Shown here one piece after another: positions 12,488-17,488 of a stretch of DNA of 64,000 bases; position 1 is the stretch's first letter, and each line of letters begins with the position of its first letter. The DNA is from Bacteroidota bacterium (GTDB lineage Bacteria > Bacteroidota > Bacteroidia > Flavobacteriales > Flavobacteriaceae). The notes beneath the pieces are model-generated. The model had not been told where the DNA came from. It saw only the letters and a program-made list of their open reading frames with translations, and made no database searches. A program made the position numbers and the translations under genes. The stretch covers positions 1 to 64,000 of the forward strand of contig JAJRRO010000122.1 of assembly GCA_024279425.1 (NCBI GenBank). Reading direction: 5' to 3'.

Positions 12488-12658
12488 ATGAAAACAACAC
12501 TACTTATCAAGGAGATTTATTTAGAAGGATTCAAAAATTTAGGAAACATTATTGTTAAAAACTATTTCAAACTTTTCGCTTGGTTCAGCTTTATACTGTT
12601 CTTTGTGGTCCTTTATGCTTTTATTTATAGAGTATATACAGGTTTTGCTTTTGATTAG
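12488..12658 (+). CDS. 56-aa membrane microprotein, DUF6747-like
   Basis: A short gene with ATG at 12488 and TAG at 12656-12658. The product starts MKTTLLIKEIYLEGFKNLG, then has a single hydrophobic helix (FAWFSFILFFVVLYAFIY) and ends in RVYTGFAFD. I recall a family of similar size and pattern (KEIYLEGF-NLG, one membrane helix, TGFAFD end) in Flavobacteriaceae, named DUF6747. The high conservation of such a small protein argues for a real gene. Function unknown; it probably sits in the inner membrane. Confidence 0.75.
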   Translation: MKTTLLIKEIYLEGFKNLGNIIVKNYFKLFAWFSFILFFVVLYAFIYRVYTGFAFD

Positions 12659-12738
12659 AGGTTTGTAACTGCAAAATACCATGGAAATAATCCAAATAAT
12701 GGGAAATATTCCATAAATTAGCTATCCCTTTTTGGATA

Positions 12739-13956
12739 GTGATGAAGAAGACGATACTGCATTTAGATTTGGACACTTTTTTTGTGTCCGTAGAACGATT
12801 AATAGATAGTCGTTTACAGAATAGGCCTTTGCTTGTGGGCGGTATAAGTGATCGTGGTGTGGTAGCTGCCTGTAGTTATGAGACCAGGGGTTTTGGTATC
12901 CATTCCGGGATGCCCATGAAAATGGCGCGGGAATTATGCCCCGAAGCAACCGTTATTAAAGGCAATGCGGGAACCTATAGCAAACATTCCGACGTGGTTA
13001 CCGATATCATCAAAGAACAGGTGCCGTTATTCGAGAAGTCAAGTATTGATGAGTTTTATGCCGATCTCTCAGGGATGGACCGTTTTTTTGGGTGCTACCA
13101 ATATGCTTCTGAATTGCGGGAAAAAATCATCAAAGAAACAGGCTTACCCATTTCGTTTGGGCTTTCGGTGAATAAAGTGGTCTCCAAAGTGGCCACCAAT
13201 GAGGCCAAGCCCAACAACCAACTTAAGGTCGATTTTGGATACGAGAAACCTTTTTTGGCCCCACTTTCCATTAAAAAAATACCCATGGTGGGTGATAAGA
13301 CCTACCAGACCCTTCGGAATTTGGGATTACGAAAGGTAAAGACGGTTCAAGAAATGCCGATGGACCTTATGCAACGGGTATTGGGCAAAAACGGAATCGT
13401 AATCTGGAAACGTTCCAACGGGGTGGATCATACGCCCGTGATTCCCTTTTGTGAGCGCAAGTCCATTTCCAATGAACGCACCTTTGATAAGGATACCATT
13501 GATGTGGTAAAGCTTAGGGGCATTCTTATGGCCATGGCTGAAAATTTGGCCTACCAGTTGCGTAGGGGAGAAAAGTTGACGGCCTGTATTACCGTAAAGA
13601 TCCGGTATTCGGATTTCAACACCTATTCCAAACAAATGCGGATTCCGTATACCAGTGCTGACCATATTTTGATTCCCAAGATTTTAGAATCGTTCAAATC
13701 CTTGTACAATAGAAGATTGTTGGTGCGGTTGGTGGGGGTGCGGTTCAGTCATCTGGTATCGGGCAATTATCAGATCAATCTGTTTGATGATACCGAAGAA
13801 GCCTTGAACCTATATGCGGCTATGGATCATATTCGGGAACGCTATGGGGATAAAAGTGTAATACGTGCCTCGGCCATGGGGGCAAGGACCATTGGTAGGA
13901 TGCATAACCCGTTCAACGGGCAACCGCCAATAGTATTGGCACATCGAAAACAATGA
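12739..13956 (+). CDS. dinB: DNA polymerase IV (Y-family translesion polymerase)
   Basis: A 405-aa Y-family polymerase. It shows the DLDTFFVSVE metal-binding block with the FF steric gate near residue 14, SSIDEFYADLSG (catalytic Asp-Glu) near 103, the thumb helix-hairpin-helix (VGDKTYQTLRNLGLRKV) and a little-finger domain. There are two adjacent ATGs (12739, 12742). It is the first gene of a mutagenesis-type cassette with the short DnaE at 14414. The LexA/UmuD-like S24 gene often found before such pairs is absent. The 60 bases upstream contain ATGGAA/TTCCAT arms (12681-12714) that could bind a regulator, but this is weak. Confidence 0.92.
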   Translation: MMKKTILHLDLDTFFVSVERLIDSRLQNRPLLVGGISDRGVVAACSYETRGFGIHSGMPMKMARELCPEATVIKGNAGTYSKHSDVVTDIIKEQVPLFEKSSIDEFYADLSGMDRFFGCYQYASELREKIIKETGLPISFGLSVNKVVSKVATNEAKPNNQLKVDFGYEKPFLAPLSIKKIPMVGDKTYQTLRNLGLRKVKTVQEMPMDLMQRVLGKNGIVIWKRSNGVDHTPVIPFCERKSISNERTFDKDTIDVVKLRGILMAMAENLAYQLRRGEKLTACITVKIRYSDFNTYSKQMRIPYTSADHILIPKILESFKSLYNRRLLVRLVGVRFSHLVSGNYQINLFDDTEEALNLYAAMDHIRERYGDKSVIRASAMGARTIGRMHNPFNGQPPIVLAHRKQ

Positions 13957-13957
13957 T

Positions 13958-14401
13958 AAATTCCAAATTCCAAAAATTATGACAAAACAAAAGGTTTACA
14001 ACTTAGAAGAAAGAACGTATTTATTTGCGAAGCAAAGCCGTTTTTTTATAAAGGCATTGCCCAAGGCTTTGAATACTATTGAAGACGGAAAACAGCTTAT
14101 AAGGTCTTCAGGTTCAGTAGGGGCAAATTATATTGAGGCTAATGAAAAGCTTGGGGATAAAGATTTTGTAATGAGGGTCAAAATTGCAAGGAAAGAAGCT
14201 AAAGAAACTCAATATCGGTTAAAACTATTGAAAGATTTGAATCAGCACTGTGCGCCAAAAGCGGAAGAGCTCATTCAAGAAGCTATTGAGCTGAGAAACA
14301 TTCTATCTTCAATTATCAATAAAAGGCTTCCTTAAAAACTAAATGATGAATGATTTTCATATGCATACCATTTGGGTTTTGGGTTTTGGAATTTGGAATT
14401 T
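13958..14401 (+). repeat. Four-helix-bundle gene cassette bounded by a perfect 18-bp inverted repeat
   Basis: AAATTCCAAATTCCAAAA at 13958-13975 is the exact reverse complement of 14384-14401. Both arms are built from a 7-nt unit (AAATTCC / TTTGGAA), and the right arm is preceded by two variant units TTTGGGT (14371-14384). The cassette starts two bases after the dinB stop and ends 13 bases before the dnaE-type start. In RNA the arms would close a long stem around the small ORF, just like the ends of 23S rRNA intervening sequences that carry the same protein family. Confidence 0.8.
13979..14335 (+). CDS. Four helix bundle protein (S23 / 23S rRNA intervening-sequence protein family)
   Basis: A 118-aa, almost all-helical basic protein with the family signature LIRSSGSVGANYIEANEKLGDKDFV and a later KEAKETQYRL stretch. 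This family was first seen as ORFs in intervening sequences of 23S rRNA genes and is related to the Avd accessory protein of diversity-generating retroelements, which binds nucleic acid as a pentamer. It is a guest between dinB and dnaE, enclosed by inverted repeats. No reverse transcriptase or variable repeat is near, so a role in retroelement diversification is not supported here. Confidence 0.9.
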   Translation: MTKQKVYNLEERTYLFAKQSRFFIKALPKALNTIEDGKQLIRSSGSVGANYIEANEKLGDKDFVMRVKIARKEAKETQYRLKLLKDLNQHCAPKAEELIQEAIELRNILSSIINKRLP

Positions 14402-14413
14402 GGTGCTTGTACC

Positions 14414-17400
14414 ATGTATTTAAATTGCCACACATATTACAGCATGCGCTTCGGGACTTTTTCCGAGCTGGAACTCTTGCAACTGGCCCAGGAAAACCAT
14501 GTTACCCAATTGGCCCTGACCGATATCAACAATACGTCGGCAGGCCTCAATTTTGTACGAAAGGCCAAGCAATACAATGTAAAACCTATTTTGGGGATTG
14601 ATTTCAGGAATGGGACGAATTCCTGTTTTGTGGGTATTGCCAAAAACAATGAGGGGTATCAAGAATTGAATGGCTTTCTATCAGAGCATTTGCATGCGGA
14701 CAAGGAATTCCCTGTCCTTGCCCCGTATTTTGAACACGCCTATGTTATTTATCCTTTTGAAAAGGTAGTGCTGAATGAGCAAATCACCTTTGCAGACTAT
14801 GAATACATTGGTATTTCCATTGCCGACTTACGGCGGTTGCCTTTTTCAAGGTTGAAGGAGTTAAAAGCCAAATTGGTGGTATTACAACCCGTGACGTTTC
14901 GCAATAAACGCGATTTTAATGCACATCGGTTGTTACGTGCTATTGACAACAATGTACTGTTGAGTAAGCTCCTCCAAAGTGAGCAGGCCTCCGAGGATGA
15001 AAAGATGTTCCCTATACAAAATTTGGCTGTGGCCTTTTCGGAATACCCTTTTATTCTGGAGAATACCGAAAAGTTGATGAATTCCTGTGGCATACATTTC
15101 GATTTTTCAGAAGGCCGGGCTCCCCAGAACCTAAAAACCTATTTGAAGACGAAAGAGGAAGATGAAAGGTTCCTTGAAAAATTATGCCAAGAAGGGTTGC
15201 CCTATAGGTATCTTGATATCGGGAGTCATATTATGGAGCGGCTGAATAAAGAGTTGGACCTTATCAAGAAAATGGGGTTCGTGTCTTATTTTCTTATCAA
15301 TTGGGATATTATCTCATATGCCAGGGAGCAGGGTTTTTTTTATGTGGGGCGTGGTAGTGGTGCCAATAGCATTGTGGCCTATCTGTTGCGGATTACCGAT
15401 GTGGATCCTATAGAGCTGGACCTGTATTTTGAACGCTTCATTAATTTGTATAGGGTAAATCCGCCTGATTTTGATATCGATTTTTCGTGGAGGGATAGGG
15501 AAGAGATGACCCAATATATATTCAAAAGGTTTGAAAACGTAGCCCTTTTAGGCACCTATGTTACGTTTAAGCGAAAAGGGGTCGTTCGCGAGTTGGGAAA
15601 AGTATTCGGACTTCCCAAGGCCGAAATCGATGTTTTATCCGAAGGAGGATACCAAAAGGCAAGATTGGATGAGGTTTCCCAACTGGTCATAAAATATGGC
15701 GAACTGATCGAGAATATGCCCAATTATTTGAGCATACATGCCAGTGGCCTGTTGATCAGTGAAAGACCCTTGCATTATTTCTCAGCAACCCACCTGCCTC
15801 CTAAGGGATTCGAAACCACACAATTTGATATGGTCATTGCCGAGGATGTGGGACTCTATAAATTCGATATTTTGGCCCAACGGGGATTGGCAAAGATCAA
15901 AGAGACCTTGACGATTTTGGAACAGAGCCGACCGGATGAGTTTTCAAAGTTCGATATTCATGATATAAAGAAATTCAAAGAAGATCCACGAATCAATGAG
16001 CTTATAAAAACGGCCCGATGTATGGGGTGTTTTTATGTAGAATCGCCGGCCATGCGTATGCTGCTTAAAAAGCTGGAGGTGGACAATTATTTAGGACTGG
16101 TGGCGGCGAGTTCCATTATTCGTCCCGGGGTGGCCAAAAGTGGTATGATGCGCGAATACATTTTACGACATCGAAATCCGGGTAGGGCAGAAGAAAAAGG
16201 GCATCCCGTAATGCTTGATATTATGCCCGACACCTATGGAGTTATGGTCTACCAAGAAGACGTAATCAAAGTAGCCTACCATTTTGCCAATCTTAGTTTG
16301 GGGGAATCAGATGTATTGCGTAGGGGCATGAGTGGCAAGTTCCGGTCACGCGAAGAGTTTCAAAAAGTAAAGGAAAAGTTCATCGAGAACTGTAGGAAAA
16401 GAGGAGAGGATGACAAGATTATTTTTGAGGTATGGGAACAGATTGCCAGTTTTGCTGGCTACGCCTTTGCTAAAGGACATTCCGCTTCCTATGCCGTAGA
16501 GAGTTACCAAAGCCTATTTTTGAGGGCCTACTATCCGTTGGAATATATGGTGGCCGTACTCAATAACGGAGGCGGATTTTATCGTTCCGAATTTTATGTG
16601 CACGAGGCCCGTATGTTGGGAGCAATGATACATGCACCTTGTATTAACAAAAGCTTTGGCAGCAATGTGATTTACGGCAAGGATATTTATCTGGGTTTCG
16701 GATATCTGCGCGATTTGGAAAGCCGTGTTTCTGACCGTATCCTAAAAGACAGGATAACAAATGGAGCCTATGGCTCCTTAGATGATTTTCTGGATCGGGT
16801 CACCATATCCATAGAACAGGCAAGTATCCTAATCCGGATAAATGCCTTTAGGATTACCGAGGTCAATCAGCACGAGTTGTTGTGGCAGGCACATTTGTTC
16901 CTTTCTAAAGGGACATTGATAGAGCATCCAAAATTGTTTCCACCAAGACACGCGAAGTTTAAGATTCCGAAATTGTATACGACTGATATCGAAACCGCAT
17001 TTACGCAATTGGAATTGTTGGGGTTTTGCCTGTGCAGTCCTTTTGAATTATTACAGGAGCTGCCAAAAAATAATCGCGGTAGTAAGGACTTGGGGCGTTA
17101 TTTAGGAAGGCATATAGATATTTATGGCTATTTGGTCACGGTCAAGAATACCAGCACCCATAGCGGAAAACGCATGCATTTTGCAACCTTGATCGATCAG
17201 CAGGGTGAGGTGTTTGATACGGTACTGTTCCCGCCGGTGGCCGCCAAATATTATTTTAGGGGCAGGGGCGTGTACCGTTTTTATGGTAAGGTGGTAAGCG
17301 AATTCGGTTTTTTGAGCATAGAGGTCATTAAAATGCAAAAGCAGGATTATATGCAAGATCCACGCTATGCTGAGATGAAGACGGCGAATAGAGTATGGAA

Positions 17401-17488
17401 ACAGAAAGAGGCCAAAACTATTGGCACAGATAAAGAGGAGGCAGGAAGAAAGGTAGACGTCATTACGAATCCCGATAGGTCGGGATGA
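14414..17488 (+). CDS. DNA polymerase III alpha subunit, short error-prone type (DnaE2-like)
   Basis: C-family polymerase of about 1024 aa. It has an N-terminal PHP domain (YLNCHTYYSMRFGTFSELEL), GRGSGANSIVAYLLR, the catalytic Asp motif PPDFDIDFS near residue 351, and a C-terminal OB-fold (DIYGYLVTVKNTSTHSGKRM). Unlike the replicative enzyme at 57677 it lacks the fused exonuclease. It pairs with dinB, as in inducible mutagenesis cassettes. ATG 14414 is chosen; the open frame upstream to 14372 only translates the inverted repeat. The last codons (VITNPDRSG and TGA) come from a dispersed repeat beginning at 17459, so the C-terminal tail is not native to the family. Confidence 0.9.
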   Translation: MYLNCHTYYSMRFGTFSELELLQLAQENHVTQLALTDINNTSAGLNFVRKAKQYNVKPILGIDFRNGTNSCFVGIAKNNEGYQELNGFLSEHLHADKEFPVLAPYFEHAYVIYPFEKVVLNEQITFADYEYIGISIADLRRLPFSRLKELKAKLVVLQPVTFRNKRDFNAHRLLRAIDNNVLLSKLLQSEQASEDEKMFPIQNLAVAFSEYPFILENTEKLMNSCGIHFDFSEGRAPQNLKTYLKTKEEDERFLEKLCQEGLPYRYLDIGSHIMERLNKELDLIKKMGFVSYFLINWDIISYAREQGFFYVGRGSGANSIVAYLLRITDVDPIELDLYFERFINLYRVNPPDFDIDFSWRDREEMTQYIFKRFENVALLGTYVTFKRKGVVRELGKVFGLPKAEIDVLSEGGYQKARLDEVSQLVIKYGELIENMPNYLSIHASGLLISERPLHYFSATHLPPKGFETTQFDMVIAEDVGLYKFDILAQRGLAKIKETLTILEQSRPDEFSKFDIHDIKKFKEDPRINELIKTARCMGCFYVESPAMRMLLKKLEVDNYLGLVAASSIIRPGVAKSGMMREYILRHRNPGRAEEKGHPVMLDIMPDTYGVMVYQEDVIKVAYHFANLSLGESDVLRRGMSGKFRSREEFQKVKEKFIENCRKRGEDDKIIFEVWEQIASFAGYAFAKGHSASYAVESYQSLFLRAYYPLEYMVAVLNNGGGFYRSEFYVHEARMLGAMIHAPCINKSFGSNVIYGKDIYLGFGYLRDLESRVSDRILKDRITNGAYGSLDDFLDRVTISIEQASILIRINAFRITEVNQHELLWQAHLFLSKGTLIEHPKLFPPRHAKFKIPKLYTTDIETAFTQLELLGFCLCSPFELLQELPKNNRGSKDLGRYLGRHIDIYGYLVTVKNTSTHSGKRMHFATLIDQQGEVFDTVLFPPVAAKYYFRGRGVYRFYGKVVSEFGFLSIEVIKMQKQDYMQDPRYAEMKTANRVWKQKEAKTIGTDKEEAGRKVDVITNPDRSG

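Follow-up and report, generated by a model that had tools for sequence, protein, structure and literature searches.

A probable S23p intervening element with heptad arms between dinB and dnaE in a flavobacterial operon

The interval between a dinB-like and a dnaE-like gene in the window (the whole 64,000-nt stretch of Flavobacteriaceae DNA that was analysed, from contig JAJRRO010000122.1) contains a small cassette, which is very probably an S23p intervening element, as in 23S rRNA genes, sited here in a protein-coding operon. The proposed element would consist of an S23p gene placed between two arms of about 4–5 heptads, the arms being mutually inverted copies. We hold this identity firmly and the cleavage of the element loosely, because the mismatches between arms are strand-neutral and some host frames run open through a cassette. 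The account as a whole, in which element identity, operon transcript, RNA stem, cutting, and gain and loss are taken together, has in our estimate slightly better than an even chance.

The cassette lies on the forward strand, as do both host genes. The upstream host gene, a dinB-like translesion DNA polymerase (positions 12742–13956), matches PF00817 and PF11799, with DNA polymerase IV models scoring below their curated cut-offs. The 5′ arm (13958–13975), consisting of about 2.5 heptads of the TTCCAAA type, begins two bases on from the end of the dinB stop at 13956 and is followed by the S23p (IVP) four-helix-bundle gene of 118 aa (13979–14335). The 3′ arm (14371–14405) consists of five heptads in the order TTTGGGT, TTTGGGT, TTTGGAA, TTTGGAA, and TTTGGTG, and its segment 14384–14401 pairs perfectly with the 5′ arm, the two 18-nt sequences being 100% complementary at a separation of 408 nt. 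The downstream host gene, a DnaE-type DNA polymerase III alpha homologue (14414–17488; PF07733, PF17657, PF14579, and PF02811), starts with an ATG at 14414, 13 past the last base of the pairing 3′ arm (14401). Profile matches to the neighbours thus place the cassette between dinB and dnaE-like genes and not inside an rRNA gene. The sequence-only reading had described a four-helix-bundle gene of the 23S rRNA intervening-sequence family between these two genes, enclosed by a perfect 18-bp inverted repeat with boundaries 2 bases past one stop and 13 before the next start; gene, repeat, and boundaries are all borne out, and only the extent of the repeat needed correction, since the 3′ side is longer. 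Eighteen nucleotides is the longest perfect inverted match between the cassette flanks, and none of 3000 dinucleotide shuffles reached it (maximum 16). The predicted RNA fold of 13940–14420 pairs the arms (z = −2.5; 2 of 100 shuffles fold as well), which suggests that the transcribed arms can pair into a stem enclosing the S23p gene. Promoter and terminator scans of 12600–14600 gave no more hits than in shuffles, with none inside the cassette. Because of its sense orientation and because no promoter or terminator was recognised inside it, the cassette is probably transcribed as part of the host operon message. An Rfam search of 13700–14700 returned zero matches up to E 0.1, and the phage records searched gave no match.

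Analysis of the encoded protein indicated an S23p fold. The gene scores 56.7 bits against PF05635 (cut-off 33.8) and 72.3 bits against TIGR02436 (S23p, 23S-rRNA IVP; cut-off 24). An AlphaFold model of the 118-aa protein, built on 15 sequences, has a mean pLDDT of 90.1, and Foldseek comparison of the model with S23 structures identified 2rld (E 6e-6, TM 0.82) and 2gsc (E 1e-3), both containing five chains. The Xanthomonas S23p is described in PMC4990558 as a ring-shaped homopentamer, and from such relatives one would expect a pentameric ring of the protein encoded here. For the three congeneric copies at dinB-dnaE, dN/dS is 0.06–0.12, and for same-site S23p genes in general the median is 0.137 (24 usable of 34 pairs), values that include several dS > 1, near saturation, and are read with no host gene as yardstick. 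On these ratios the S23p gene is under purifying selection, and several copies in the source genome and its congeners are broken. The model may also resemble Avd, a protein of diversity-generating retroelements (4dwl, E 0.07, TM 0.72; 8ube, E 0.1), with weak E-values, and PF05635 has been noted to resemble Avd (PMC10053308). Unlike Avd systems, S23p genes do not need a reverse transcriptase in the genome: two congeners (G001 and G002) carry 9 and 11 PF05635 matches with zero RVT_1 matches. In the source genome no reverse transcriptase adjoins an S23p gene, its sole RVT_1 match lying on C131, a contig without any of its PF05635 matches.

We then compared the flanks of S23p genes across the genus. 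The source genome has 19 PF05635 matches, two of which are pieces of one gene and were therefore counted as 18 genes; together with 11 congeneric genomes, eight of them with matches, it gave 63 loci, 62 usable, and the number of matches per genome ranges from 0 to 19. The 62 loci represent 30 distinct sites, dinB-dnaE being one, and 17 sites are common to two or more species. Read by eye, most S23p genes of the source genome are flanked on both sides by repeats of their own 7-nt unit, and a first statistic on its 18 loci was modest (own-arm mean 14.2 vs 10.7). For the 62 genus loci, the match fractions at lags 7, 14, and 21 were 0.378, 0.350, and 0.335 in the upstream flanks and 0.391, 0.356, and 0.336 in the downstream flanks, compared with 0.25–0.28 inside neighbouring genes, and no other lag from 2 to 22 formed a peak. 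Lag 7 was the best lag at 45 of 62 loci vs 2 of 62 gene-internal controls. The arms of one locus also match each other in inverted orientation, with an own-arm score of 15.35 vs 9.45 for mismatched loci (0 of 2000 permutations) and a same-locus direct score of 9.98. Inverted scores of at least 14 were reached by 37 of the 62 loci vs 10 of 106 control genes at equal window length, and direct scores of at least 14 by just 3 of the 62. These 106 controls, co-directional short genes that lack S23p, have no peak at lag 7 (0.294 upstream and downstream alike), and lag 7 was best in 12. Misfits, at which own arms were no better than half of the mismatched ones, numbered six of 62 by alignment and eight of 62 by duplex energy. 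That a chance repeat merely lies beside an ordinary operon gene draws on the simple composition of the 18-bp repeat taken alone; this explanation is refuted by the genus periodicity and permutations and by the named loci described below; the shuffles, the control genes, and the heptad consensus of paired arms in the pooled set also speak against it, and we give it practically no credence.

The heptad sequence varies from site to site, and each locus tends to have its own heptad, repeated in inverted form in the two arms. The proposed refuting check, whether four-helix-bundle genes elsewhere lack such flanks, came out in favour of the element: most loci read have 7-nt-unit, mostly inverted flanks, although TTTGGAA is not the common unit, so that a search for it alone would have missed the flanks elsewhere. 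A shared terminal repeat was rejected, because TTTGGAATTTGGA is also found away from S23p genes, as at L008, with the nearest PF05635 match 4.7 kb off; the mark is therefore the 7-nt period and not the unit sequence. At L008:1500–1678 (contig C65, ~137.3 kb, source genome), orphan arrays of TTCCAAA ×4 and CTAACTG ×13 share one spacer. An IS element or MITE is disfavoured, since terminal repeats are not shared among copies, as the scores of mismatched and own arms indicate (9.45 and 15.35 in the genus). A strict array scan of 458.6 kb of the source genome found one array of period 7 (the window's own), one of period 6, and three of period 12, while a looser scan gave 22 period-7 arrays, four of which lie near S23p genes, and 5–17 arrays for periods 5, 6, and 8–11, none near S23p genes.

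Comparison beyond the genus revealed the same anatomy in distant groups. In a draw of 61 genomes from the same phylum, source genome included, the S23p family occurs in at least 45, and the best period was 7 at 18 of 29 loci and 8 at 6 of 29. A named set, the best 80 of 585 confirmed loci and therefore biased to the query, had period 7 best at 36 and period 8 at 11 of 54 loci titled Bacteroidota, and period 7 best at 23 of 26 others. Own inverted scores above the 95th percentile were found at 27 of 54 and 18 of 26 of these loci, respectively, and direct scores at 11 of 54 and 5 of 26. The other titles include Chloroflexota, Acidobacteria, Ignavibacteria, Proteobacteria, SAR324, Actinobacteria, Verrucomicrobia (Opitutia), Nitrospirales, Planctomycetota, Clostridia, an archaeon, and others, about a dozen groups in all, sorted by record title (one of the 26 carries no group); since many of these records are metagenome bins, an individual title may be mistaken. 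Ignavibacteria and Fodinibius, counted here as other, are put with Bacteroidota in some taxonomies. A tblastn search of plasmids gave 29 records, mostly cyanobacteria, and at the 14 cyanobacterial loci read from them lag 7 was best at 11 (units such as GGGAACA, AGTAGGG, and GGGTGTA), with an own inverted score of 20.1 vs 11.0 mismatched. These units resemble short tandem heptamers that have long been known in cyanobacteria. The plasmid contexts include cas6-cas4, cas10-cmr3, and AAA ATPase-ParB. Heptad-flanked S23p genes lie between cas genes at L245, L251, and L252; the arms of L245 are direct repeats, and L252 has a best period of 8.

A pooled set of 139 loci (one per genus site, the 29 phylum loci, and the 80 named loci) contained clear period-7 arrays in 88 upstream and 92 downstream arms, with a median of 32 nt; the corresponding numbers were 10 and 6 for period 6 and 24 and 26 for period 8. 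In the 74 loci with arrays on both sides, the heptad consensus of the arms was 0.644 vs 0.450, and scores above the 95th percentile were inverted in 44 and direct in 6. A weak TnAG pattern is common to the heptads (2.47 bits vs at most 1.85 in permuted controls). The earlier suggestion that the element can colonise transcripts outside rRNA agrees with operon cassettes in the genus, the phylum, other groups, and cyanobacterial plasmids, and on the sequences compared it is well supported that S23p-type elements live in transcripts other than rRNA.

In each of the 62 genus loci whose two neighbours are known, the cassette is in the sense orientation between co-directional genes, the neighbours being called as long ORFs. 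In the sampled source genome, 128 of 206 spacers of 40–350 nt are co-directional, so that random sense insertion would match this placement about 31% of the time. Sense placement between co-directional genes was also found at 18 of the 29 phylum loci (4 antisense between co-directional genes, 3 convergent, and 4 incomplete), at 45 of 54 Bacteroidota and 15 of 26 other named loci (antisense to both neighbours in one of each), and at 10 of the 14 cyanobacterial plasmid loci (antisense at L244, L246, and L248, and one convergent). At L248, on a Nostoc edaphicum plasmid, a full cassette with (AGTAGGG)n/(CCCTACT)n arms sits antisense between two ribonucleotide reductase genes. In three loci of the same phylum (L085, L093, and L096), the S23p gene lies in another frame within a DNA methyltransferase-like ORF that is open throughout (homology by eye). 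These nested cassettes are at about 1450–1850 of the oriented locus, in host ORFs of 752, 728, and 1103 codons that all run off the locus start; they make up 3 of 165 loci examined for nesting in an open host frame, with 0 antisense.

The state of a given junction differs among relatives. The dinB-dnaE junction holds the full cassette in the source genome, G002, and G010 (3 of the 10 genus junctions read), a gene-less hairpin of different heptads in G006, and, by eye, a heptad stretch before dnaE alone in G001, G003, G004, G005, G008, and G009, so that the junctions with and without the cassette that the sequence-only reading proposed to look for do exist. By eye, G010 has TCCCAAA units in one arm and TTTGGGA units in the opposite one, and an odd unit, TGACAAA, stands at the matching place in both arms in G002. 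In the dnaE homologues of L029, L030, L031, L033, L034, and L035 (6 of 6 checked), the conserved N-terminus IYLNCHTYYS follows the in-frame stop without an ATG, GTG, or TTG in between, and the heptad 3′ stretch abuts the dnaE start in the same six loci. At sdhA-sdhB, the source genome carries a cassette, and in seven congeners the spacer, about 80 nt long, lacks the gene; it is a plain heptad hairpin in G006 and G011 and a degenerate one in the other five. Three further congeners have TAGGAAACCTATG from stop to start, but their SdhB start is just 70–71% alike and this is therefore perhaps not the same locus. None of the junctions compared proved to be a strict empty allele, identical to an occupied one in all other respects. 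Gene-less heptad hairpins also occur between co-directional genes at L119:850–940 and L121:5890–5965 of the source genome. Period-7 arrays were found in 14 of 128 co-directional spacers of the source genome (other periods, 2–4), 3 of the 14 adjoining S23p genes, and in 9 of 103 such spacers within 400 kb of G006, a genome lacking PF05635 matches (other periods, 2–7; less clear); divergent and convergent spacers taken together had 3 of 78 in the source genome and 0 of 57 in G006.

These states suggest that over evolution a junction may acquire the element, lose it, or retain just a heptad hairpin without the gene. A comparison of 58 genus proteins gave a median identity of 27% (maximum 66%) between copies at different sites in the same genome, vs a median of 70% for the same site across species. 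Recent transposition was rejected on this comparison, with no fresh jump seen. Since same-site relatives are closer than same-genome copies, the cassettes appear to be mostly inherited in place. Unlike genes also occur at one site (L023 vs L054, 21% identity; L052 vs the L016 group, dN about 0.8), and the arms of L023 and L054 score 16.5 when paired within a locus but 8.5 when paired between the two, suggesting occasional replacement, as at L023/L054.

Gene-less hairpins within the same genomes can also be read as targets of a regulatory module, in which S23p is an RNA-binding regulator that recognises heptad RNA, both in its own operon and elsewhere, and adjusts how much of each flanking product is made relative to the other. 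The purifying selection on S23p, the housekeeping and repair operons among the sites (assigned by eye from the flanks), and the possible fold similarity to Avd, a member of the DGR RNA-protein complex, would fit such a role. Heptads that differ by site with only a weak common pattern, the range of 0 to 19 matches per genome, and an operon that can do without the gene (sdhA-sdhB) argue against it, and we consider this explanation improbable.

The anatomy common to the cassette and rRNA intervening sequences makes RNA cleavage the leading idea for the mRNA cassette too. RNase III, whose gene was found in 10 of 12 genus genomes including the source genome, or another nuclease would be the most likely agent, cutting the stem into separate dinB, S23p, and dnaE messages as for rRNA intervening sequences. 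By this analogy we give cleavage of the cassette in mRNA somewhat less than an even chance. Pairing in the sense RNA predicts arm mismatches with more G:U than A:C, and no such excess was observed, either in the 108 loci scoring at least 14 (190 vs 180) or in the genus (49 vs 81). Own arms had no clear advantage over same-site arms of other species by alignment (p = 0.098) or by duplex energy (−36.9 vs −37.8 kcal/mol; p = 0.066), and the covariation of arms across species is only suggestive. The antisense cassettes do not favour excision either, and cutting at L085, L093, and L096 would destroy the open host frame and thus be costly. The strand-neutral mismatches suggest that the arms are kept alike by DNA copying and not by selection on base pairs.

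Such copying is the core of an explanation at the DNA level, in which 7-nt slippage and template switching keep the arms alike, the element spreads or persists in the form of DNA hairpins, folding of the RNA is a by-product, and the target of S23p is DNA or its own replication intermediate. Besides the missing G:U excess, it would account for antisense copies with good arms (inverted scores of 34 at L248 and 20 at L094) and for long heptad runs (L245, L051, and L067), and slippage has been suggested as the origin of heptamers in work cited by PMC4679880. Alone, this explanation leaves the all-sense, all-operon placement of the 62 genus loci unexplained, and the arrays centre on one gene family whereas control genes show no period 7; we regard it as possible but unlikely. 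In the S23p intervening element favoured here, the heptads may likewise drift via slippage and copying between arms.

Comparison with rRNA intervening sequences indicates how far the likeness extends. According to PMC4990558, the Coxiella 23S rRNA element carries an S23p ORF directly preceded by tandem heptamers, has a terminal stem of 28 bp, and is cleaved by RNase III in vitro, and the same source places S23p ORFs in intervening sequences of Leptospira and others. As these elements are described there, they and the dinB-dnaE cassette have in common a sense S23p gene, a length of about 430–440 nt, terminal inverted repeats, and, in Coxiella, tandem heptamers beside the gene; operon cassettes and rRNA elements are also alike in their patchy distribution among relatives. 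The cassette differs in that its host is a protein-gene operon, its heptad sequence is site-specific, and its excision is only putative.

Heptamer repeats have been described separately. The Xanthomonas and Nostoc sets of PMC4692102 (GGGAATC and GGGGA(T/C)T types) resemble the arms in having 7-nt units, four preferred, often between aligned genes, with 70 and 75 inverted heptamer pairs reported for two Xanthomonas genomes. Its main text differs in making no mention of S23, four helix, or xcc0516, and the Nostoc heptamers of its unit type, as presented there, form few inverted pairs and none on plasmids. The TAACTGA repeats of Beggiatoaceae, cyanobacteria, and Bacteroidetes (PMC4679880) are also intergenic heptamers near starts, some within operons, but are given there as almost all direct; the main text does not mention S23, intervening, or helix bundle, and TAACTGA/TCAGTTA units are nearly absent from the 14 cyanobacterial S23p loci (two occurrences in total). 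The passages of these two papers that treat the role of heptamer repeats call it open, and polymerase slippage is a published suggestion that PMC4679880 cites for their origin. PMC3936711 lists 18 PF05635 genes in cas loci. Among the literature matches listed, in a search with subscription journals and most preprints outside it, none links heptad arms to operon S23p genes.

A wider view, which we put forward tentatively, is that heptad-armed S23p mRNA elements are pan-bacterial, that rRNA intervening sequences are a special case of them, and that many heptamers and hairpins of cyanobacteria, Xanthomonas, and Bacteroidota are arms or relics. The 7-nt unit would then be the footprint of one subunit of a pentameric ring that binds the arms; five units of 7 nt make 35 nt, compared with the median arm of 32 nt. 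This view joins three separately described things: S23p intervening sequences of rRNA, four-helix-bundle genes of unknown function, and heptamer repeats. If it is true, a single kind of element would carry a large family of hypothetical genes, many phyla may have operon messages that are cut at fixed points, and what S23p does could be tested with the heptad arms next to its gene as a defined nucleic-acid partner.
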